Virus record (IMG/VR): IMGVR_UViG_3300028196_000066
Span: 1 to 27,696 of that record
Source: a virus
Direction: 5' to 3' (one strand)
DNA: 27,696 nt
Shown here piece by piece: positions 2,637 to 27,696 of the stretch; within the stretch, counting starts at the first letter, position 1; every line of letters begins with the position of its first letter. Both the position numbers and the translations under genes were made by a program. Under the pieces are notes generated by a model. It saw only the letters and a list, made by a program, of their open reading frames with translations. It had not been told where the DNA came from and searched no databases.

Positions 2637-3320
2637 ATGAAAATCACATTTATATCAGATACACATACTAAGCATAAGCAATTAGATTTGTCAGGTGGAG
2701 ATTTACTAATTCATGCTGGAGATATAATGAATAGTGGTTATAGCGCATATGATATAGAGGACTTCTGTAATTGGTTTGATGGCTTAGAACAATATGACCA
2801 TAAAGTTTTTATTGCTGGAAATCATGATCGAATGTTTGAAGATACGCCAGAGAAGGCAATGGAAATTGTTAATTCATATAAGTGGATTGATTATTTGCAA
2901 GATAGTACAATTGAAGTCGGAGATGATAATGAAACAGCTAAAATCTACGGTAGTCCTTGGCAACCAGAATTTTACAATTGGGCCTTCAACTTACCAAGAC
3001 GTGGAGATGGACTAATGGCAAAATGGGGAGCAATCCCAAAAGATACAGATATTCTTATTACGCATGGGCCACCACAAGGTCATTTAGATATTAGTGGCCC
3101 ACCTCATAATGTAGGTGATTTAGGTTGTGAATTATTAAGAGTTAAAGTAGATGAGCAACCACCGAAGATTCATGTGTTTGGACATATACATGGAAGTTAC
3201 GGTTATAAGTTTCATAATGGTACGCATTTCATTAATGCATCAGTATTAAACGAAAGATATGACCAAGTAAATAAACCAATGACTATTGATTGGGATAAAG
3301 AAACAAATGAAATAAAATGA
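2637..3320 (+). CDS. calcineurin-like metallophosphoesterase, 227 aa
   Basis: All hallmark metal-binding motifs are present in order: SDTH (D8, H10), GD (D29), GNHD (61-64), a His in ITHGPP (H143) and GHIHG (182-186). This is the two-metal calcineurin-like phosphoesterase fold, of the short type seen in MPPED/YfcE-like enzymes. It hydrolyses phosphomonoesters or phosphodiesters; the substrate cannot be told from sequence. In phages such enzymes are thought to act on nucleotides or nucleic acids. It has no export signal, so it is cytoplasmic. The stop overlaps the next start as ATGA. Confidence 0.9.
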   Translation: MKITFISDTHTKHKQLDLSGGDLLIHAGDIMNSGYSAYDIEDFCNWFDGLEQYDHKVFIAGNHDRMFEDTPEKAMEIVNSYKWIDYLQDSTIEVGDDNETAKIYGSPWQPEFYNWAFNLPRRGDGLMAKWGAIPKDTDILITHGPPQGHLDISGPPHNVGDLGCELLRVKVDEQPPKIHVFGHIHGSYGYKFHNGTHFINASVLNERYDQVNKPMTIDWDKETNEIK

Positions 3321-4448: not shown

Positions 4449-4503
4449 TTAACAATTTAGTAACGTTAGAATTTGGATATGTCAAATTAATTTTGTATAT
4501 TTA
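4449..4503 (+). promoter_or_regulatory. phage promoter P4
   Basis: TTAAC at 4449-4453 and a degenerate GTAAC box at 4460-4464 precede TTG (4473-4475), 20 bases and TATATTTA (4496-4503). The spacer region holds AATTTG/CAAATT arms (4470-4475 and 4483-4488), a weaker version of the spacer hairpin in other copies. Confidence 0.75.
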
Positions 4504-4524
4504 CTTTAAATAATAAAAAGAACT

Positions 4525-4650
4525 ATGAGTGTATTCGAAGTTATAATCGCAGGTGGGGTTATACTAAATGTGATTGTGTTTTTATGGGGGGTGTTTCACC
4601 TCGCTAAAGCAATTGGGAATCGTAATAATAATAAAGACGTGGGATTATGA
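4525..4650 (+). CDS. single-pass membrane microprotein, 41 aa
   Basis: One transmembrane segment at about residues 3-26 (FEVIIAGGVILNVIVFLWGV), followed by a basic/Asn tail (GNRNNNKDVGL). First gene after P4, with leader AATAATAAAAAGAACT before the ATG. The stop overlaps the next start as ATGA. Not recognised; probably an inner-membrane peptide. Confidence 0.6.
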   Translation: MSVFEVIIAGGVILNVIVFLWGVFHLAKAIGNRNNNKDVGL

Positions 4651-4790
4651 AACAGTTTATTGAAGATTCAAAGTGGTTTTACCGTACCAGTATGTCGTAC
4701 ATGGATGGTCATTCTAAGTGGTATGTTTATTCAAGAATGCCTATCGCTTATATTAAATTTATGTTGTATCAATATCGAATAATCAAATAG
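4647..4790 (+). CDS. hypothetical microprotein, 47 aa
   Basis: Starts with an ATGA overlap and is very rich in Tyr, Trp and Met (SKWFYRTSMSYMDGHSKWYV; KFMLYQYRIIK). The C-terminal 20 residues are amphipathic and basic. No family recognised. Its stop lies one base before the start of the lipoprotein gene at 4792, so it belongs to that operon. Confidence 0.55.
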   Translation: MKQFIEDSKWFYRTSMSYMDGHSKWYVYSRMPIAYIKFMLYQYRIIK

Positions 4791-4791
4791 T

Positions 4792-4977
4792 ATGAAAAAA
4801 GTAGTAATTAGTTTTATCGGGTTTGTTACATTTTTAACAGCCTGTGTTTTGTTTTCTTCTTGTGAGAAACAAGATGATTGCAAATTATACCGATGTGGAA
4901 CTAAAGAAGTTAATGTTATCAATCATGCCGCATATTACCAATCAGATAACTGCGAATGTATTGAAAAATTTAAATAA
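4792..4977 (+). CDS. small Cys-patterned lipoprotein A, 61 aa
   Basis: A signal peptide (MKK plus hydrophobic core) leads to lipobox candidates LTAC (C18) or LFSSC (C24). After C24 comes EKQDD, similar to the acidic lipoprotein export signal that directs Bacteroidetes lipoproteins to the cell surface. The mature part has CKLYRC and ends with CECIEKF. The same pattern, CKxxxC then CECIExF, recurs in lipoprotein B at 5304, so the two are paralogs. It is immediately followed by the T9SS-CTD gene. Probably a surface-exposed, disulfide-bonded lipoprotein; function unknown. Confidence 0.8.
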   Translation: MKKVVISFIGFVTFLTACVLFSSCEKQDDCKLYRCGTKEVNVINHAAYYQSDNCECIEKFK

Positions 4978-4978
4978 T

Positions 4979-5302
4979 ATGAAAAAGTTATTAGTAATAG
5001 CGGCAATGTTTGTTGGAGTAACAGCATCCGCACAAGAAGTTTACATTCCAAATGCATTTACCCCTAATGGTGATGGACACAATGATATTTGGAAACCTGT
5101 GTTTAGTGATACACTTACTGTCAAACAATACGACTTACAAATATTTGATAAGTATGGTGTATTAGTGTTTTGGACAAACGACCCTACTGATGGGTGGGAT
5201 GGGTTACCATTTGATAGTACCTATGTGTATAAACTAACTATGAAATATGAAGGCCATCTAAATGGTATTAGTAAGAGTGGAACTATAAAATCAATACATT
5301 AA
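4979..5302 (+). CDS. secreted bare type-B T9SS C-terminal domain (CHU_C-like), 107 aa
   Basis: Sec signal peptide at residues 1-18 (KKLLVIAAMFVGVTASA). The rest is one domain matching the gliding-motility-associated C-terminal (CHU_C) family: IPNAFTPNGDGHNDIW (23-38), YDLQIFDKYGVLVF (51-64), GWDG (72-75), TYVYKL (81-86) and the ending SGTIKSIH. In Bacteroidetes this domain is the type-B sorting signal for type IX secretion, normally at the end of large surface proteins; here there is no cargo. I placed the start at 4979, one base after the lipoprotein A stop, because it begins the signal peptide; the longer reading frame upstream lacks one. It may occupy the host T9SS or decorate the surface. 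Confidence 0.85.
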   Translation: MKKLLVIAAMFVGVTASAQEVYIPNAFTPNGDGHNDIWKPVFSDTLTVKQYDLQIFDKYGVLVFWTNDPTDGWDGLPFDSTYVYKLTMKYEGHLNGISKSGTIKSIH

Positions 5303-5303
5303 G

Positions 5304-5555
5304 ATGAGCAGAAAAGAACAAACCGAAAAGTTTGCATTAAGTGCAATAGGATATACGTTTACCATTATGGGTATTTTAATTTTACTATCAATGTTGGTCG
5401 GATGTGATGAAGACAGACGATGTAAAACATGGAATTGTAAATCTTGGGATGGTGGTGGTAATATAGAGTATATAGAAGTAGATTCACCTAACCAACAACT
5501 TTACCAATACTGTGAATGTATAGAGAATTTTGATAGAACTTGGGTAGTAGATTAA
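5304..5555 (+). CDS. small Cys-patterned lipoprotein B, 83 aa
   Basis: Ten charged residues, then a hydrophobic segment ending in a textbook lipobox, LVGC (C34), followed by acidic DED as in surface-export signals. The mature part has CKTWNC (40-45) and CECIENF (70-76), matching lipoprotein A. Between them is a longer acidic, Tyr-rich insert. It starts one base after the T9SS-CTD stop, so the two lipoproteins bracket that gene in one operon. The shared cysteine pattern points to a common disulfide fold. Confidence 0.8.
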   Translation: MSRKEQTEKFALSAIGYTFTIMGILILLSMLVGCDEDRRCKTWNCKSWDGGGNIEYIEVDSPNQQLYQYCECIENFDRTWVVD

Positions 5556-5568
5556 AAATAAATAGAAA

Positions 5569-5889
5569 ATGGGATTAAAAAAGAAATACAAAAGAGAGTA
5601 TGGTGAATTGATTGCCGCTCTTATTAAAGATGGTAGACCAACTGCAGTATTGGAAGTAAAGGTAATAGAAACATCTAAGATGAAGGGTTACTTAATTTAT
5701 GAATGTTCTTACATTGATAGCGGTACTGTTAAAGTATCCAATATTATTGCTAGAGATATATCGGATGCAATGGATAAGCTAGAACCACTACTAGGGTCAG
5801 GTATCCCATCATCAACTGTAAATTATGTATTAGGAAGTAAAACGTTACATACTCCGATTGAAATCCAAACAGATTCATCCGATAAATAG
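5569..5889 (+). CDS. hypothetical protein, 106 aa
   Basis: Unrecognised soluble alpha/beta-like protein: a basic N-terminus (MGLKKKYKREYG), strand-like segments (PTAVLEVKVIETSKMKG; YLIYECSY) and a helix with DAMDKLEPLL. It follows lipoprotein B by 13 bases and ends one base before the next start. Confidence 0.7.
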   Translation: MGLKKKYKREYGELIAALIKDGRPTAVLEVKVIETSKMKGYLIYECSYIDSGTVKVSNIIARDISDAMDKLEPLLGSGIPSSTVNYVLGSKTLHTPIEIQTDSSDK

Positions 5890-6073: not shown

Positions 6074-6587
6074 GAATGGGGATATAAACGTAGCAAAGAA
6101 ATTAAAAGAAATATTCACACCAATTGATGGTGAGTATGAGACCGATGCACATCTGTTGGTAAATCGAATCTATGATAATCCACCAGAAGATGCCGATAGA
6201 AGTTGGATGATTGATAAGGTTGGTGCTAAGTGGATGTGCTCTGAGTTTGAATACGATGATGAGTGTGAACACATGTATCTAAGGTTAACATCAGCATGGA
6301 GTGTGCCTCAATACTTCTTAGAACGATTAGCAAAAGTTTTGTCTGATATAAAAGAAGATTGTTATATCGTAGGTACATATGAAGACGAGGGGCTTGACCC
6401 AATAGGTGCATTCGTTTACGCAAAGGATTATGATGATATCGAAGATTATGATGAAGATATTGATTATGATAAAGTGTGGGATGATGATGAGTATCGGGAT
6501 GACCTTTACGAAAAAAACTATCAATTACAAAACGGATTAGAAGAATGTTATATGGAGTATTTAAAAGATGAAAATACAGAAACGTAA
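6039..6587 (+). CDS. Api92/YubB-like ferredoxin-fold protein, 182 aa
   Basis: The N-terminal MANHMETYVRIKNG, a central VGAKWMCSEFEYDDE and LRLTSAWSVPQYFLERLA recall the DUF1281/Api92-like (YubB ferredoxin-like) family found on phages and plasmids, with its MANW..N.v.i.G start, GaKW motif and SAW.PP segment. The function of that family is not established. The C-terminal third is unusually acidic and Tyr-rich (DYDDIEDYDEDIDYDKVWDD), with about half of residues 130-160 being Asp or Glu. It is cytoplasmic. Family membership is from motif recall. Confidence 0.6.
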   Translation: MANHMETYVRIKNGDINVAKKLKEIFTPIDGEYETDAHLLVNRIYDNPPEDADRSWMIDKVGAKWMCSEFEYDDECEHMYLRLTSAWSVPQYFLERLAKVLSDIKEDCYIVGTYEDEGLDPIGAFVYAKDYDDIEDYDEDIDYDKVWDDDEYRDDLYEKNYQLQNGLEECYMEYLKDENTET

Positions 6588-6726
6588 AATGAGTATATCA
6601 ATGGAATACATATGGGCACAGTTATACATACTGCCATTCGTAAAGGTTACCCATACTAGAGTACTTAATGGTGATTACGAATTACTAATCGGATGGTTGA
6701 AGTGGCGACTCGCTATAACAATTTAA
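6568..6726 (+). CDS. hypothetical microprotein, 52 aa (family with 8877)
   Basis: Product has QLYILPFVKVTHTRVLNGDY followed by ELLIGWLKWRLAI. The protein at 8877-9023 has QVYLLPFIKITHDIFLNGEY followed by ELIVGWVNIGISL, so the two are clear paralogs. I took the ATG at 6568, overlapping the previous gene by 20 bases; ATG at 6589 is the alternative, just after the upstream stop. Its stop lies within the TTAAC box of promoter P5. Conservation at two loci supports coding. Function unknown. Confidence 0.65.
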   Translation: MKIQKRKMSISMEYIWAQLYILPFVKVTHTRVLNGDYELLIGWLKWRLAITI

Positions 6727-6777
6727 CATTTTTTAACATTAGAGGTTTGGTTATTCCAAGCCTTTTTTGTATCTTTA
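6723..6777 (+). promoter_or_regulatory. phage promoter P5
   Basis: TTAACATT boxes at 6723-6730 and 6733-6740, TTG (6747-6749), 20 bases, then TATCTTTA (6770-6777). The -33 element forms the left arm of the terminator-like hairpin at 6741-6768. Confidence 0.8.
6741..6768 (+). terminator. terminator-like hairpin inside promoter P5
   Basis: GGTTTGG (6744-6750), loop TTATT and CCAAGCC (6756-6762) form a 7-bp stem with one G-T pair, which AGA/TTT extends to about 10 bp. Six T's follow (6763-6768). This has the form of an intrinsic terminator for the upstream operon, yet it lies between the -33 and -7 elements of P5. Confidence 0.65.
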
Positions 6778-6798
6778 CTTTATAAAAGAAAATAAGAT

Positions 6799-7284
6799 AT
6801 GGCTTATAATAAATTCCGTTGGTTCACATCTGGTAAGTACCGCAAGAAACCACTTAAATCAAATGCACCATTATTACTAAAGATTCGTAATGGTGATTTT
6901 GAATCATCACCTTTCTTTAGAGAGGCAGATGATAATCGTAAGTTATATCATACGATGTATGATAACTATATGAATACATCACCAATAAAAAATCTTAAAG
7001 ATAAAGAGCATGAAGCTCATCAATGTGCTAAGATGAAACGAATCAAAGAACAGAAGTTGTTGGAGAAGGGTGTAGAAGAAGAACAGATGAGATTGAACAA
7101 ACTAAAGATAGAATTAGAAAAAGAGTTTGGTAAATGTCTTTGGGACAAATCACTAGAACGTCAGAGGGGTAAGGGTGCTACTGAAGATTTATATTGGTGG
7201 TATAAGAAGCAATGTAAGATGGGGTATACTCCATCAGAACTTGCAATTAGATTAGGTAGAAAAACAACTAAAGGATTAAAGTAA
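6799..7284 (+). CDS. hypothetical basic protein, 161 aa
   Basis: Basic N-terminus (KFRWFTSGKYRKKPLKS), then a charged helical middle likely to form a coiled coil (RIKEQKLLEKGVEEEQMRLNK), then DLYWWYKKQCKMGYTPSELA, which resembles a helix-turn-helix-like end (MGYTPSELAIRLGRKT). A nucleic-acid-binding role is possible from that ending and the charge, but I do not recognise the family. First gene after P5, two bases before the next ORF. Confidence 0.7.
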   Translation: MAYNKFRWFTSGKYRKKPLKSNAPLLLKIRNGDFESSPFFREADDNRKLYHTMYDNYMNTSPIKNLKDKEHEAHQCAKMKRIKEQKLLEKGVEEEQMRLNKLKIELEKEFGKCLWDKSLERQRGKGATEDLYWWYKKQCKMGYTPSELAIRLGRKTTKGLK

Positions 7285-10082: not shown

Positions 10083-10138
10083 TTAACAATTTGTTAACAT
10101 TGAAAGTTTGGTAATCCCAATCTTTTTTCGTACTTTAG
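10083..10138 (+). promoter_or_regulatory. phage promoter P7
   Basis: The clearest copy: the palindrome TTAACAA-T-TTGTTAA (10083-10097) also contains two TTAACA boxes 11 bases apart. TTG follows at 10108-10110, then 20 bases and TACTTTAG (10131-10138). The box starts 3 bases after the thyA stop. Confidence 0.85.
10102..10128 (+). terminator. terminator-like hairpin inside promoter P7
   Basis: GAAAG-T-TTGG (10102-10111) pairs with CCAA-T-CTTTT (10117-10126) with one T-T mismatch around loop TAATC, and T's continue to 10128. As in P5, the -33 element is the left arm, and the T-tract fills the promoter spacer. It could end thyA transcripts. Confidence 0.5.
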
Positions 10139-10165
10139 TATTGTAATCATTAAGAGATATACAAT

Positions 10166-10363
10166 ATGAAAAATTATCAAGCAATTTTATTGGCAGCAGT
10201 AGGAATGGGAGTTGCACTCCTTACTATGAATGGAACAATTCAAAACCACATCCATTTTTCGGATGTTATTAACGAAGTGATATTTGCAATCATAGCGTTA
10301 ATGAGTAGTTTATGTGGGTTACTATCCATAGATTATAAGAAACTAGTCAAAGGGTTACTTTAG
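10166..10363 (+). CDS. two-pass membrane protein, 65 aa
   Basis: Two hydrophobic segments, about residues 5-22 (QAILLAAVGMGVALLTM) and 35-54 (INEVIFAIIALMSSLCGLL), joined by a His-containing polar loop (NGTIQNHIHFSD). The tail is basic (YKKLVKG). The size and topology allow a holin-like role, but there is no lysis gene nearby and no family match that I recognise. Sole gene between P7 and P8. Confidence 0.7.
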   Translation: MKNYQAILLAAVGMGVALLTMNGTIQNHIHFSDVINEVIFAIIALMSSLCGLLSIDYKKLVKGLL

Positions 10364-10388
10364 ATTGTTAATAACTATGTTAATAACT

Positions 10389-10443
10389 TTAACATATTTT
10401 AACATTAAATACTTGGTTATTCAAGTAAAATACCTTATCTTTA
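10389..10443 (+). promoter_or_regulatory. phage promoter P8
   Basis: TTAAC boxes at 10389-10393 and 10399-10403, TTG (10413-10415), 20 bases and TATCTTTA (10436-10443). ACTTG/CAAGT arms (10411-10415 and 10422-10426) overlap the -33 element, without a T-tract. It drives the HExxH-VWA gene. Confidence 0.8.
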
Positions 10444-10470
10444 CATAGTAAAGAGAGATAATTAGTAATA

Positions 10471-12648
10471 ATGAGAAAAGATAAATATATGAGAGATAAC
10501 ACAAAATACAGTTCGTATTGGTTAAAAGATGACCTATTCGATGACACTACTTCTGATGATGTAATTGAGAATAAACAATCTAATTTACTTGCACTTTCGT
10601 CATACAAACGTGCCATTTCTAACTTCGTTAACATTGTAACAAATGAGAACATTAAAGTAACGTTTGATGAGCGTGGTGCTGATTCTTATACTGATGGTAA
10701 ATCAGTTGTGATATCGGCTAAAATGGATGATAAAGAGTTTGACCCTACGGTTGGACTAGCCCTTCACGAAGGTTCACACATTAAGTTAACCAACTTTGAT
10801 ACGTTAGGAACAATCAACAATTATATTGGAAATGTAGTTGGGTATGAACTAATTACGGAACTGATGGAGAAACATTCTAAAGATGAGTTCCAAACTAAAA
10901 ACTACATTAAAGATATCGTTAAGAACTTACTTAATGTTATCGAAGATAGACGAATTGATTACTATGTTTATTCTACTTCTCCTGGCTACAAAGGTTACTA
11001 TCACTCTATGTATGATAAGTATTTCAACGCTAAGATTATCGATAAAGGACTTCAATCTTCTGAATATAGAGAAAATGATTGGGAATCTTATATGTTCCGT
11101 ATTATCAATATCACTAACGAACATAGAGATTTAGATGCTCTTCCAGAACTGAGAGCAGTATGGGATATGTTGGATTTAAAAAACATACAAAGATTAACCA
11201 ATACCGAAGAGTCTATGAAATTGGCTGCAAGTATTTTCAAACTGATTGAGAACTCACTTCCAGCTGACCAAAAACCAATTGAATCACCTAATGAGCAAGA
11301 AGGCGAAGGTGGTGGTACTGAGGGTGAACAATCTGAAGGTAGTGGTGCTGGTGGTGGTGGTGATAACTCCGATACCAATGGTACTGATAATACTGAAGGT
11401 AGTGGTGGTGAACCTAAAGATGGTTCTAATGATACTGATGATACCAACGGCGATGCTGATGGAGATGATACACAAAGTGGTTCTACTTCTTACAATCCAA
11501 ATGGAGCAGGTGGTGATGGGTCTAACAATCAGATTGCTGATAACAAAGTGGAATCATCTGAAGGTGAGGGTCGTATGAGTGACCGACAAAAGAAACAATT
11601 AGATAATGCTATTAAGAAACAAAAAGATTTTCAAAATGGTGATATAAAAAAGAAGAAAGTATCTAAGAATGAAAACAAAAAAATAGAAACTTTAGCCAAG
11701 AGTGGTATCGAAGAAAAATTAGTTGGTGAGGGTTATAAATCTGCAGACTATTGGAGAAAGGACAAGAAAATCCCAGTAATGATTATTAGAAACTTCACTA
11801 AGCAATTGGCAGAGTCTAATACCATTAATATGTTATCAACGTGGGAGTATCGATGTGCTGATAACCAAGCGCCTGTCAATAAAGGTATTCAAATCGGTAC
11901 TATGTTGGGTCGTAAGTTGAAACTTCGTTCTGAGGAACGTTCGTTAACTACACCTCGTATGAAGAATGGTAAAATATCAGGTCGATTGTTGCATGAGTTG
12001 GGTATGGGTAATACAAATGTGTTTGACCAAATTGTGGTTGATAAGCACAGTCCCGCACTAGTTCACATTTCAATTGATGCTAGTTCTTCAATGGGTGGTA
12101 AAAAATGGAGTAACTCACAAACTGCAGCTGTTGCAATTGCAAAAGCCGCTTCAATGACTCCTAATTTAAATGTGGTTATTTCATATAGAAGTATCCAACA
12201 CAATGGGGGTACAAATGGGAATGTTCAACCACTTATGTTAATCGCTTACGATTCTCGTACTGATAAGTTTTCTAAGATTCAACAATTGTTTCAATATCTT
12301 AACCCATGTGGAACTACACCTGAGGGTTTGTGTTTTGAATCTATCTTAGACGAAATCACCAAAACGAGTAAAGGCATTGATTCTTACTTTATTAACTTTT
12401 CAGATGGGTATCCCGGCTTCTCCAATTCAGATATGGATTACTACGGTGCAGGTGCTATAGCACATACGTCAACCCAAGTTAAGAAAATGCAAATGGCAGG
12501 AGTTAAGGTTTTATCTTACTTTATTGAAGAGGGCAATTGGGGTCACGCAATGGAAAGTTTTAAAGAAATGTATGGTAAGTCTGCTGAGAACGTAAATGTT
12601 ACTTCTGTAATACCATTAACTAAGACGTTAAACAAATTATTTCAGTAA
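10471..12648 (+). CDS. HExxH metallopeptidase-like / VWA-domain protein, 725 aa
   Basis: Three parts. Residues 1-260 carry a zinc-metallopeptidase-like signature, LALHEGSH (HExxH at 99-103), and further on NVIEDRRID (156-163), the usual Glu/Arg helix of such proteins. Residues 270-370 are a low-complexity Gly/Asp/Ser/Glu linker. Residues 525-725 are a von Willebrand A domain with MIDAS motif DASSS (536-540), Thr in CGTTPEG (614-615) and Asp in FSDGYP (645). The order resembles CobT-type VWA proteins, which work with a MoxR/CobS AAA+ ATPase; such an ATPase follows at 13082. Likely a metal-dependent remodelling or peptidase complex. Target unknown; a cobalamin role is unlikely in a phage. Confidence 0.85.
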   Translation: MRKDKYMRDNTKYSSYWLKDDLFDDTTSDDVIENKQSNLLALSSYKRAISNFVNIVTNENIKVTFDERGADSYTDGKSVVISAKMDDKEFDPTVGLALHEGSHIKLTNFDTLGTINNYIGNVVGYELITELMEKHSKDEFQTKNYIKDIVKNLLNVIEDRRIDYYVYSTSPGYKGYYHSMYDKYFNAKIIDKGLQSSEYRENDWESYMFRIINITNEHRDLDALPELRAVWDMLDLKNIQRLTNTEESMKLAASIFKLIENSLPADQKPIESPNEQEGEGGGTEGEQSEGSGAGGGGDNSDTNGTDNTEGSGGEPKDGSNDTDDTNGDADGDDTQSGSTSYNPNGAGGDGSNNQIADNKVESSEGEGRMSDRQKKQLDNAIKKQKDFQNGDIKKKKVSKNENKKIETLAKSGIEEKLVGEGYKSADYWRKDKKIPVMIIRNFTKQLAESNTINMLSTWEYRCADNQAPVNKGIQIGTMLGRKLKLRSEERSLTTPRMKNGKISGRLLHELGMGNTNVFDQIVVDKHSPALVHISIDASSSMGGKKWSNSQTAAVAIAKAASMTPNLNVVISYRSIQHNGGTNGNVQPLMLIAYDSRTDKFSKIQQLFQYLNPCGTTPEGLCFESILDEITKTSKGIDSYFINFSDGYPGFSNSDMDYYGAGAIAHTSTQVKKMQMAGVKVLSYFIEEGNWGHAMESFKEMYGKSAENVNVTSVIPLTKTLNKLFQ

Positions 12649-12684
12649 ATTGTTAATAACTTTTTAAAATAAGTGTTAAAACAT

Positions 12685-12715
12685 TAGGTTATTAAGGATA
12701 TTAATCGTATCTTTA
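12685..12715 (+). promoter_or_regulatory. phage promoter P9
   Basis: ATTAGG replaces TTTGG at the -33 position (as in P3), with TATCTTTA at 12708-12715 in the usual register. The upstream boxes are degenerate (TTAAAA). It lies between the VWA gene and the small gene at 12732. Confidence 0.65.
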
Positions 12716-12731
12716 TTATGTAATAAAAAAG

Positions 12732-12974
12732 ATGAGTTATATGAAAGGAAGAAAAACAATTGAAGTATCTACGATGGTAGAATGGGCCAATTTACAATTG
12801 GGTAGAACTGATGATTATGCTGATGTAGGATTTAAGAGTGGTATCTCTACTATGGTAGAAAGGGTGCTCTTTAACTCTAAGAACTACAATGGATTTCAGT
12901 TTATTAATAATGATGATTCAGAGGTAGGTACTGTTGGTTATTACTCTCGCTACTATACTCTACCAAAGACTTAA
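12732..12974 (+). CDS. conserved-looking hypothetical protein, 80 aa
   Basis: KGRKTIEVSTMVEWANLQLG, then RTDDYADVGFKSGISTMVER, then NYNGFQFINNDDSE and GYYSRYY. The patterned WANxQLxRTD, NYNGF and SRYY stretches look like those of small conserved hypotheticals in T4-like marine phages; I know of no function. It sits between the VWA protein and the AAA+ ATPase and may be a third component of that module. Its end overlaps the TTAAC box of P10. Confidence 0.7.
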   Translation: MSYMKGRKTIEVSTMVEWANLQLGRTDDYADVGFKSGISTMVERVLFNSKNYNGFQFINNDDSEVGTVGYYSRYYTLPKT

Positions 12975-13026
12975 CAATTTGTTAACATTGAAAGTTTGGT
13001 AAATCAAAATAATTGTCGTACATTAG
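12971..13026 (+). promoter_or_regulatory. phage promoter P10
   Basis: The same TTAACAA-T-TTGTTAA palindrome as P7 (12971-12985), TTG (12996-12998), 20 bases and TACATTAG (13019-13026). TTTG/CAAA arms lie in the spacer. It drives the AAA+ ATPase gene. Confidence 0.85.
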
Positions 13027-13038
13027 TAAGGTAATAAG

Positions 13039-13055
13039 GGGTTAAGGTTTAACCC
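13039..13055 (+). promoter_or_regulatory. 5'-leader hairpin, copy 4
   Basis: GGGTTAA (13039-13045), loop GGT, TTAACCC (13049-13055), about 12 bases after the P10 -7 element. Same stem as at 1090 and 1921, and the preceding GTAATAA is also shared. Confidence 0.7.
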
Positions 13056-13081
13056 AATTAAAAATTAAAAAATAGTTATAT

Positions 13082-14350
13082 ATGAAAGCACAGAGATTTG
13101 TATTTTGTAAAGTTGTTCGAAATGAGAACAAAGAGTTAATATTGGTTGATTCCAATGGTGTTGAATTTTTAGTTCCTCAACTTAATGAGGGTGGTAGTTC
13201 TCTTTATAAGAGAGCAGTAGCAGCTGCTAACAACCCCACTAAGTACTGTTTTAAGGTACGTGTGAGTGGTAACCTTACAGAAGGTTCAATTGAGTTTGGG
13301 CGAGTGCCAGGTGAGAAGTTTAACGGCGCTGAGCCTGTTGGGAATTTCAACAAACCAAATGGTGGGTTGGAACAATACCAAATGAAAGTGAGTCCCCAAC
13401 CATCTGCAGTTGTCGATAAACCAATGGAAGAGGATTTCCTAAAGTTTATACACAATGAATCTAAAGATTTAAAACCACAGATGTTGTTTATGAATGAACT
13501 GAAGTGGAAGTATCTTATCCGTAATATCATTAGAGGTAAGAACATTATGATGACCGGCCCTGCTGGTTGTGGTAAGACAATGGCTGCCAAAGCCGCTGCT
13601 AATTCAATCGAAGGTTACTCTATGGAAATCTTTAACTTAGGTTCTACACAAGACCCTAGAGCTACGTTAATCGGTAATACTCAGTTCGATACTAAGAAAG
13701 GTACTGTGTTCTCTCCTTCACCATTTGTGAAAGCTATCCAAACTCCAAATACAGTTATTGTATTGGATGAGATTAGTAGAGCACACCCTGAGGCTCACAA
13801 CATTCTGATGAGTGTTTTAGATGCGGGTCAAAGATACCTAAGATTAGATGAGGCTGCTGATTCTCCAATTGTAAAAGTTGCTGATGGTGTTTCCTTTATT
13901 GCATCTGCAAACATTGGTAATGAATATACCGCAACACGTCAATTGGATAGAGCGATTGTTGACCGATTTACAATTATTGAAATGGATACTTTGATTAAAG
14001 ATGAAGAATCATCTCTACTTCAAATGATGTATCCATCAGTTGATATTAAGTTAATCAATTCAGTTGCAGAGATTACTTCAATGACTCGTAGTGAGGTTAA
14101 GAAAGAAACTCCTAACTTATCTAATTCACTTTCAACTAGAACTGCAGTTGAGATTGGTTCTTTACTCTACGATGGATTTACAATAGCGGAAGCTGCTGAG
14201 ATTACCATCTACCCATTATTTGATGATGCGGGTGGAGCACAATCAGAACGAACTTACATTCGTCAGTTTGTCCAAAAGTTTGTCGGTTCAACTGAAGAAG
14301 AAAATCTTTTCAATGTAGAAGATGATTCTAAGTTAGATAACCCATTTTAA
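13082..14350 (+). CDS. MoxR/CobS-type AAA+ ATPase, 422 aa
   Basis: Residues 1-110 are a beta-rich N-terminal region. The AAA+ core follows: Walker A GPAGCGKT (159-166), Walker B VIVLDE (225-230) then ISRAHPEAHN, sensor 1 SAN (275-277), and RQLDRAIVDRF (286-296) with candidate Arg fingers. The SRAHPE helix insert is typical of MoxR-clade ATPases. These act as chaperones paired with VWA-domain proteins, here the HExxH-VWA protein at 10471. The pairing is known for the family; the phage target is unknown. It has its own promoter P10, so it can be made without the VWA partner. Confidence 0.9.
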   Translation: MKAQRFVFCKVVRNENKELILVDSNGVEFLVPQLNEGGSSLYKRAVAAANNPTKYCFKVRVSGNLTEGSIEFGRVPGEKFNGAEPVGNFNKPNGGLEQYQMKVSPQPSAVVDKPMEEDFLKFIHNESKDLKPQMLFMNELKWKYLIRNIIRGKNIMMTGPAGCGKTMAAKAAANSIEGYSMEIFNLGSTQDPRATLIGNTQFDTKKGTVFSPSPFVKAIQTPNTVIVLDEISRAHPEAHNILMSVLDAGQRYLRLDEAADSPIVKVADGVSFIASANIGNEYTATRQLDRAIVDRFTIIEMDTLIKDEESSLLQMMYPSVDIKLINSVAEITSMTRSEVKKETPNLSNSLSTRTAVEIGSLLYDGFTIAEAAEITIYPLFDDAGGAQSERTYIRQFVQKFVGSTEEENLFNVEDDSKLDNPF

Positions 14351-25729: not shown

Positions 25730-26170
25730 ATGGCTAAACCACGAAAAGAATATTCGTATCAAACTTTAGATTTACAACCCGATGTCGCAGTCGGCATTAC
25801 CTTACCATTCGGTAGTAGTAAGGGATTGTTTACTTTAAGTTATACAACTGAAGAGCAATCCATATCCAACTTAAAAAATTTATTACTAACTAGAAAAGGC
25901 GAACGTCCATTTGTTCCTGAGTTTGGGTCTGGTGTATATTCTTTAATGTTTGAACAAATAGGAGCTGATTTATCAGACAGTCTTACGGAATCCATCACAG
26001 AAGATATTAATTTCTGGCTACCATACATAGTTATTGATGACATTAATATTGAAGTAATAGAAGATAGAAACTATGTTCAAATTCAATTATCATATAGGGT
26101 AACAGAGGATGGTGTAAATCGACAAATTATTATGTATGTAGATAACGCAGGTTCAGCAACAATAGAATAG
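25730..26170 (+). CDS. 25: baseplate wedge protein, gp25-like, 146 aa
   Basis: Core gp25/GPW motif: LFTLSYTTEEQSISNLKNLL (33-52), LTRKGERPFVPEFGSGVYSL (53-72), then MFEQIGADL and an acidic helix with ITEDINFWLPYI (89-100), followed by strands (DINIEVIEDRNYVQIQLSY). gp25 joins wedge subunits in contractile tails, phages and type VI secretion alike. Length is close to T4 gp25 (132). It is followed by gp6 after 7 bases, the usual order in T4-like phages. Confidence 0.93.
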   Translation: MAKPRKEYSYQTLDLQPDVAVGITLPFGSSKGLFTLSYTTEEQSISNLKNLLLTRKGERPFVPEFGSGVYSLMFEQIGADLSDSLTESITEDINFWLPYIVIDDINIEVIEDRNYVQIQLSYRVTEDGVNRQIIMYVDNAGSATIE

Positions 26171-26177
26171 GTATATT

Positions 26178-27696
26178 ATGGCAAAAAAAGCTAACAACGA
26201 CTTAGTACAAAAGGATGTATCTTTAGTAGGTAGAGACTTCGGTGAATTTAGAAAAAATCTAATTGATTTTTCTAAAACATACTTCCCAAATACATATAAT
26301 GATTTTAACGAATCATCTCCTGGTATGATGTTCATTGAGATGGCATCTTATGTTGGTGATGTTCTATCATTTTATACAGATACCCAACTAAGAGAATCAT
26401 TAATAACAACTGCAGAAGAAAATAGTAACTTATTTAATATTGCTGCAGCATATGGGTATAAAGCCAAAAACTATGTACCTGCAACTGTTACTATGGATGT
26501 GTTTCAATTAGTACCATCTACTGGAACTGGTAATAATGTAAAACCTGATTTTACTTATGCAATGATTATTTCCGATGGTATGTCAATCGGCTCAACTGAT
26601 AATAGTGATGTTAGTTTTATAGCACAAGGTCAATTAGACTTTTCATTCTCATCTTCACTAAGCCCAACTGAGGTGACCGTTTATCAAATAGATGAAAATA
26701 CAAATGCGCCAGTTTATTATTTATTAAAGAAACAAATTAAAGCATCAAGTGGTGCTATTAAAACAAAAGAATATTCTTTTGAAAGTCCAAAGATTTATGA
26801 TAAAATAAAATTGGAAGATGAGAATTTTATTAGAATTAAAAGTATAACTGATTCAGATAACGATAAGTGGACTGAAGTTCCGTATCTCGCACAAGACACA
26901 GTATTTGAGCAAATAGAAAACAACGAAGATAACTCAACACAATTTTCACAATTCTCAGATGATACCCCATATCTTTTAGAATTAAATAGAGTACCAAAAC
27001 GATTTATAACAAAAATTGAAGATAGAGGTGTGGTGACAGTTCAATTTGGAGCAGGTGTATCTGCTAATGCAGATGAAGAGATTATACCAAATCCAGATAA
27101 CGTTGGTTCTGCTCTATATGGAGTCGTTGGCGATTTAGACCAGGGAATCGACCCATCTAATTTTTTATATACTAAAACATATGGTGTCGCCCCATCTAAT
27201 ACAACGTTAACGGTTGAGTATTTAGTTGGTAATGGTATCGCAGATAATGTACCAGCAAAAGACTTAGTAACTGTTATTTCATCTACCCAAACATTTGCAA
27301 ATGAACGCAATTTAGATACATCACTTGTAAACTTTGTTAGAAACTCTATAGCAGTAACAAACCCAGAACCAGCACGAGGAGCACGTAGTGAAGAATCTAT
27401 GGATGAGATTCGTAACAATGCAATGTCATTCTTTGCAGCTCAAAATAGAACTGTAAGTAGAGAAGATTATATTATGAGATGTTATGCACTACCACCACAG
27501 TTTGGTTCAGTAGCAAAAGCATACATACTACAAGATTATCAAATTGAAAATAAAAAAAGTAATGGTGAACCAATCACATCTGAAATACCGAACCCATTAG
27601 CACTAAACTTATACACATTGGGTTACAATGATACCAATCATTTAGTACCACTAAACGCCGCAACAAAAAATAATCTAAAAACATATATTTCATATT
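26178..27696 (+). CDS. 6: baseplate wedge protein, gp6-like (partial, runs off the right edge)
   Basis: Open from the ATG at 26178 to the window end with no stop (506 codons). Residues 1-60 carry DFSKTYFPNTYNDFNESSPG and MMFIEMASYVGDVLSFYTDT, the conserved N-terminus of gp6. Further on come NPEPARGARSEESMDEIRNN, AMSFFAAQNRTVSREDYIMR and ALPPQFGSVAKAYI, the baseplate J-like core. gp6 forms the wedge ring with gp7 and gp53 in T4. The protein is longer than what is seen here; the remaining C-terminus lies outside the window. Confidence 0.92.
   Translation, partial: MAKKANNDLVQKDVSLVGRDFGEFRKNLIDFSKTYFPNTYNDFNESSPGMMFIEMASYVGDVLSFYTDTQLRESLITTAEENSNLFNIAAAYGYKAKNYVPATVTMDVFQLVPSTGTGNNVKPDFTYAMIISDGMSIGSTDNSDVSFIAQGQLDFSFSSSLSPTEVTVYQIDENTNAPVYYLLKKQIKASSGAIKTKEYSFESPKIYDKIKLEDENFIRIKSITDSDNDKWTEVPYLAQDTVFEQIENNEDNSTQFSQFSDDTPYLLELNRVPKRFITKIEDRGVVTVQFGAGVSANADEEIIPNPDNVGSALYGVVGDLDQGIDPSNFLYTKTYGVAPSNTTLTVEYLVGNGIADNVPAKDLVTVISSTQTFANERNLDTSLVNFVRNSIAVTNPEPARGARSEESMDEIRNNAMSFFAAQNRTVSREDYIMRCYALPPQFGSVAKAYILQDYQIENKKSNGEPITSEIPNPLALNLYTLGYNDTNHLVPLNAATKNNLKTYISY

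Follow-up and report, generated by a model that had tools for sequence, protein, structure and literature searches.

A cargo-free type-B sorting domain of the type IX secretion system encoded by phages: a possible decoy for the display of host surface proteins

Type-B substrates of the type IX secretion system (T9SS), such as SprB, PG1035, and Fjoh_3952, consist of a signal peptide, cargo, and a conserved C-terminal domain (CTD), and a PorP/SprF gene is usually, although not universally, linked to theirs. Export of the type-B CTD needs a PorP/SprF shuttle, which is limiting and is not recycled, and orphan type-B substrates are able to share one shuttle (PMC12618676). PorP/SprF binds and anchors type-B proteins, apparently uncleaved (PMC9143113), and the last ~100 residues of a type-B CTD are insufficient for efficient secretion (PMC10202324). 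Phage-encoded T9SS cargo is already known: the Cryophage proteins carry type-A sorting domains fused to enzymes or PA14 cargo, they are thought to hijack host export, and superinfection exclusion has been proposed for them (PMC7468147). The present study concerns a 107-aa protein encoded at position 4979 of the virus record IMGVR_UViG_3300028196_000066, of which the whole stretch of 27,696 bases was analysed (hereafter the window). Like the type-B substrates, this protein has a signal peptide and the same CTD, and like the Cryophage proteins it is encoded by a phage; unlike both, it carries no cargo. The cargo-free type-B tag is what appears to be new here, and no report of such tags in phages was found in a literature search whose scope excluded most subscription journals.

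A sequence-only reading of the window had claimed that the 4979 product is a signal peptide plus a CHU_C domain and nothing else, and profile searches bear this out. The matches to PF13585 (CHU_C; E 5e-13, 49.4 bits, cut-off 27, residues 22–89) and to TIGR04131 (E 1e-12, 48 bits, cut-off 35) are both far beyond chance. The gene is intact, its domain begins at residue 22 of 107 and is preceded only by the signal peptide MKKLLVIAAMFVGVTASAQ, and the mature protein has ~88 residues; the signal peptides of this protein and of all its bare relatives were judged by inspection of the N-terminus. Among the type-B features that it has are IPNAFTPNGDGxND and GWDG, as well as the YVY strand and, at its end, the G-x-(V/I) strand. 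Compared without the exact motif borders of PMC12618676, IPNAFTPNGDGHND and GWDG are intact, while NRWG is changed to DKYG and the C-terminal LIR to SIH. The 4979 product differs from the described type-B substrates in its missing NRWG tryptophan as well as in lacking cargo and a linked PorP/SprF gene and in being phage-encoded. The structure prediction agrees with this assignment: an AlphaFold2 model, based on six phage sequences, has a mean predicted local distance difference test score (pLDDT) of 77, with values below 50 in the signal peptide only, and shows four main strands. Its best matches in BFVD are other phage proteins (TM ~0.7), several of which are named gliding motility C-terminal domain. 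Weak matches in a PDB sequence and fold search were the C-terminus of the Aureispira grappling-hook protein (E 0.0014) and a chain of the T9SS NucA complex (E 0.04), and the PHROG family search gave nothing significant for the CTD or for either of the lipoproteins encoded beside it.

The 4979 gene is not part of a larger one. Upstream, its frame stays open as far as a GTG at 4844; however, what is read there is the +1 frame of the preceding lipoprotein gene, and a comparable extension is absent in six relatives (L002, L148, L149, L165, L192, and L210). Therefore, no hidden cargo is fused to the domain, and a broken cargo gene or a frameshift fusion was rejected as an explanation. A missing type-B match or a fused cargo frame would have spoken against the earlier reading; the match is present and no such frame was found. 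In L006 and L007, a longer open frame arises only through run-back across the overlapping lipoprotein gene.

Profile scans of IMG/VR detected bare CTDs of 107–112 aa in 13 further contigs, which with the window make 11 distinct proteins in 14 records, and the start, signal peptide, and stop are intact in all 11. In codon comparisons, the ratio of nonsynonymous to synonymous substitution rates (dN/dS) was 0.29 between the window and L001 (0.22 for the mature part), 0.11 between L002 and L004, and 0.08 between L004 and L006, each significantly below neutrality (binomial p from 0.001 to 2e-6). In these close pairs, the bare domain itself is thus maintained. In L004, the first 24 nt of the CTD signal peptide are identical to those of the neighbouring lipoprotein gene, as seen by eye at this one locus; therefore, the CTD gene seems to have been assembled using a signal peptide of phage origin.

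In bacteria, as the sequence-only reading had stated, this domain almost always sits at the end of large cargo. None of the best 80 relatives from bacterial genome contigs is bare, their frames being ~300 to 2,100 aa long except for one case at a contig edge, and three bare proteins (L124, L125, and L126) occur in 12 host genomes among the matches listed (~155 of 383). Bare type-B proteins thus exist in bacteria too, at ~2%. These three resemble the 4979 product in consisting of a signal peptide and CHU_C, but they are chromosomal, have a short linker before the domain, and keep NRWG or NRYG. L127, a near-bare host frame that resembles a broken large gene, was left out of the count.

Among phages, 11 of 39 non-redundant type-B proteins are bare and 28 are fused (Fisher's test against hosts, p ~1e-6), a ratio that is biased upward because the phage set was found mostly with bare queries; the distant relatives L165, L192, and L210 are also bare, despite this bias. 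The fused phage proteins, of 187–1067 aa, have the same domain after PKD, immunoglobulin-like (Ig-like), or other cargo (e.g. L171, L177, and L018; BFVD A0A6J5NJX2). The NRWG tryptophan is kept in 96% of the fused phage domains and 76% of the host domains vs none of the 11 bare phage CTDs; its loss is only suggestive, and no significance is claimed, because it may represent one or two independent events. In a tree of 120 domains, the bare phage proteins fall into two groups, that of the window (support 99/98) lying among host sequences, and that of L165, L192, and L210 lying near one host protein and one fused phage protein. A single clade of bare phage CTDs was not rejected (approximately unbiased test, p 0.30), and no claim of two separate origins is made. 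Many long secreted phage proteins with a terminal type-B T9SS domain, including a family of 815–818 aa, were seen in the IMG/VR loci L156–L226, and a family of 187-aa phage type-B proteins shares operons with further secreted PKD/Ig-like proteins.

The recurrence of the bare tag under purifying selection suggests that it serves phages to occupy or jam the host machinery for displaying surface and gliding proteins. The reading preferred here, to which a probability of roughly 0.45 is assigned, is that the 4979 product acts as a cargo-free decoy on the PorP/SprF shuttles or the SprA translocon of the host and lowers the display of type-B adhesins. The broader proposal, that cargo-free T9SS signals evolved in phages, possibly on two occasions, as dominant-negative decoys that sequester PorP/SprF and stop adhesin display and gliding during infection, is rated as slightly less likely. 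One possible scheme can be described as follows. The protein would reach the periplasm by Sec, where its CTD would be recognised by the SprA translocon and/or a shuttle of the PorP/SprF family. With ~88 residues and no cargo, it would then sit on the shuttles or the translocon, so that fewer type-B adhesins, e.g. SprB, are secreted and anchored. The loss of gliding adhesins and of surface structures that other phages use may lead to superinfection exclusion and perhaps to a stop of gliding, while the small lipoproteins, encoded in the same operon, would modify the envelope independently, possibly at the same surface, without being obligatory partners.

Competition with host T9SS traffic had been among the possibilities raised by the sequence-only reading, and it is supported as plausible. 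PorP/SprF (PF11751) had no match in 12 phage records, some of them fragmentary, in a search run without a positive control in a T9SS host, and no type-A CTD was found in the same records. Only host shuttles therefore appear to be available, and given the literature on shuttle need, a cargo-free CTD would be well placed to occupy them or the translocon. Extracellular phage resistance arises from gliding/T9SS mutations in Cellulophaga and flavobacteria, and SprB and RemA, both adhesins, are possible receptors (PMC13288928).

Several points weigh against the decoy. The presence of a T9SS in the host is implied only by the domain itself. Since the NRWG tryptophan is absent from the bare phage CTDs and a change in a conserved motif blocked secretion of the SprB CTD (PMC12618676), recognition by the T9SS may be changed or abolished. 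A bare form does not have to imply sabotage, because hosts also own a few bare type-B proteins. Finally, the bare CTD of L165 ends a lysis-like cassette and that of L210 lies beside a PKD protein without a CTD, settings which fit other roles.

The CTD gene lies immediately downstream of a lipoprotein gene, with 1–2 nt between them, in five phage groups (the window; L002/L003/L005; L004; L006; and L007). A 566-bp block comprising only this pair has 93.6% nucleotide identity between G003 (6340–6905) and G004 (10093–10657), two otherwise very different phages, and its flanks are unrelated. The window and L007 also have the two small upstream genes (4525 and 4647) in common. However, the bare CTDs of L001, L148, L149, L165, L192, and L210 have no such lipoprotein next door, and L028 has the 5304 lipoprotein together with the 5569 gene in a record without CHU_C. 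Of the three-gene cassette that had been proposed, the CTD–lipoprotein pair is thus confirmed as recurrent, whereas the full order is not general. Because the pairing is inconstant, the bare CTD is the unit on which selection acts, and in some phages the lipoprotein often accompanies it.

The close spacing and joint movement of the pair would fit a surface anchor or adaptor, in which the CTD, after export through the T9SS, remains attached to a PorP/SprF barrel on the cell surface and holds or positions separately made phage proteins (the lipoproteins here, PKD proteins elsewhere), or just covers the surface so that receptors are masked. The locus L210:2935–4606, where the bare CTD gene is close to that of a separate secreted 383-aa PKD protein, is consistent with this role. 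An anchor is nevertheless somewhat unlikely, since six bare CTDs have no such lipoprotein as a neighbour, the lipoproteins have a predicted membrane anchor of their own, and the last ~100 type-B residues are reported to be insufficient for secretion (PMC10202324).

The two lipoproteins may themselves be the effectors. The 4792 and 5304 products are paralogous, as the sequence-only reading had it (BLASTP E 1e-5, 29% identity over 72 aa), and share CKxxxC and CECIE(K/N)F; across eight aligned relatives, the only conserved positions are the lipobox cysteine, C-x4-C, one valine, and C-x-C-I. The hydrophobic N-terminus of both ends at a lipobox-like cysteine (SSC/EK and VGC/DE), although the Pfam lipobox profile LPAM_1 scores 15.9 bits, below its cut-off of 20. 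The mature part of the 4792 product is found behind three different signal peptides (in the window; in L004, L006, and L007; and in L135) and that of the 5304 product behind two (window and L028), the junction lying at the cysteine in each case. This swapping of signal peptides at the cysteine supports the lipobox and shows that it is the mature part which is conserved. A predicted lipoprotein structure with a predicted TM-score (pTM) of 0.38 was not used. At L135:10607–10810, located at ~150.6 kb in G003, the mature part of the first lipoprotein is present a second time in the same phage, with a different signal peptide. This copy is near a metallophosphoesterase gene homologous to window 2637–3320, and in L148 that phosphoesterase gene is directly 3' of the bare CTD.

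The best known surface-export signal of Capnocytophaga is C-X-K-(D/E)2-X (PMC5080379). The residues after the cysteine, C-E-K-Q-D-D in the 4792 product and C-D-E-D-R-R in the 5304 product, are similar to this signal and to SDDDD and SDDFE without matching exactly; the acidic resemblance to Bacteroidetes export signals that had been pointed out is therefore only approximate.

Receptor blocking is known for small phage lipoproteins, with T5 Llp acting on FhuA, and the superinfection-exclusion lipoproteins T5 Llp and Cor are small models acting at the outer membrane to which the window lipoproteins can be compared; no sequence match was found for the window lipoproteins, and the cysteine pattern is different. 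By this precedent, the lipoproteins would bring about the receptor block, the CTD being only a passenger or an aid to targeting, and both the conservation of their mature parts through exchanges of signal peptide and the co-transfer of the pair are compatible with it. It is decidedly unlikely, however, since phages that lack these lipoproteins also conserve the CTD, which is under purifying selection of its own.

An accessory role in lysis or in breaching the outer membrane, with late action on or through the T9SS translocon or the outer membrane alongside endolysin and spanins, is suggested by two loci. In L165:1456–3276, genes for an endolysin-like protein (phrog_33083, 6e-16), a small membrane protein, and a weakly Rz-like spanin (E 0.003) form a series whose end is overlapped by the bare CTD gene, and in L004 a GH19 endolysin lies ~0.9 kb downstream. 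No lysis gene was recognised beside the bare CTD in the window, L148, L149, L192, or L210, and the window cluster carries a repeated promoter-like element common to non-structural genes and is far from the baseplate genes; this role is rated a shade more doubtful than a block led by lipoproteins. A functionless leftover of a host cargo gene, once captured and now decaying, to which the survival of only the C-terminal domain of the usual host protein might point, is very improbable in view of 11 distinct intact sequences, purifying selection, the recent horizontal transfer of an intact gene, and the apparent construction of the L004 gene with a phage signal peptide.

If the 4979 product is indeed a decoy, it would represent, to our knowledge, the first class of phage-encoded inhibitors against the T9SS. 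Flavobacterial phages adsorb via T9SS/gliding proteins, and resistance to phages follows from mutations there (PMC13288928). A small CTD that is naturally free of cargo could serve as a tool for studying the type-B signal alone, the saturation of shuttles in trans, and phages that close the door behind them, and bare CTDs would help to mark the hosts of uncultured phages as T9SS-bearing Bacteroidota.

The window belongs to a contractile-tailed phage, presumably of a Bacteroidota host, with baseplate wedge proteins at 25730–27695, and a collinear relative of 65.7 kb (G001) has portal, large terminase, and baseplate genes. The three focal open reading frames (ORFs) lie head to tail, separated by 1-nt gaps, at the coordinates that the sequence-only reading gave (Table 1).

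Table 1. Features of the gene cluster around the bare type-B sorting domain in the window.
Feature	Position	Strand	Basis or remark
Promoter-like element (TTAACA..GTAACGTT..TTTGG - n - TATATTT) before the cluster	4449..4507	+	Pattern only
41-aa protein with a single transmembrane segment, opens the cluster	4525..4650	+	ORF list; similar 39-aa protein just upstream in L004 and L007
47-aa protein MKQFIEDSKWFYRTSM...	4647..4790	+	ORF list; same gene at the same position in L007
Cysteine-rich small lipoprotein, 61 aa; SSC/EKQDD lipobox, CKLYRC, CECIEKF	4792..4977	+	Translation; relatives of the mature part in L004, L006, L007, and L135
Bare T9SS type-B sorting domain (CHU_C / TIGR04131) with signal peptide, 107 aa	4979..5302	+	Profiles, phage relatives, selection, AlphaFold2 model
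Second cysteine-rich small lipoprotein, 83 aa; VGC/DEDRRC, CKTWNC, CECIENF	5304..5555	+	Translation; paralogue of 4792–4977
106-aa protein without assigned function	5569..5889	+	Accompanies the second lipoprotein in L028

The element that precedes gene 4525 is repeated between genes at ~10 places in the window, on this strand only (copies at about 9, 1017, 1848, 4449, 6723, 7621, 10077, 10389, 12965, 18004, and 20455). It often reads TTAACA..TGTTAACATT, followed by TTTGG and a TATnTTT box, and resembles the -33/-7 promoter pair of Bacteroidota. Judging from these patterns, it probably serves the phage as a promoter of its own and includes an inverted repeat resembling an operator, and the cluster is probably one operon within the non-structural gene set. 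Elsewhere in the window, a large protein is encoded beside a MoxR-like AAA ATPase (10471–14350), a pair that is conserved in G001, G004, and G007. A YfiM-like small exported protein is encoded at 2280–2606 (weak NCBIfam match, E 9e-7), and its homologue is found just downstream of the bare CTD of L001.
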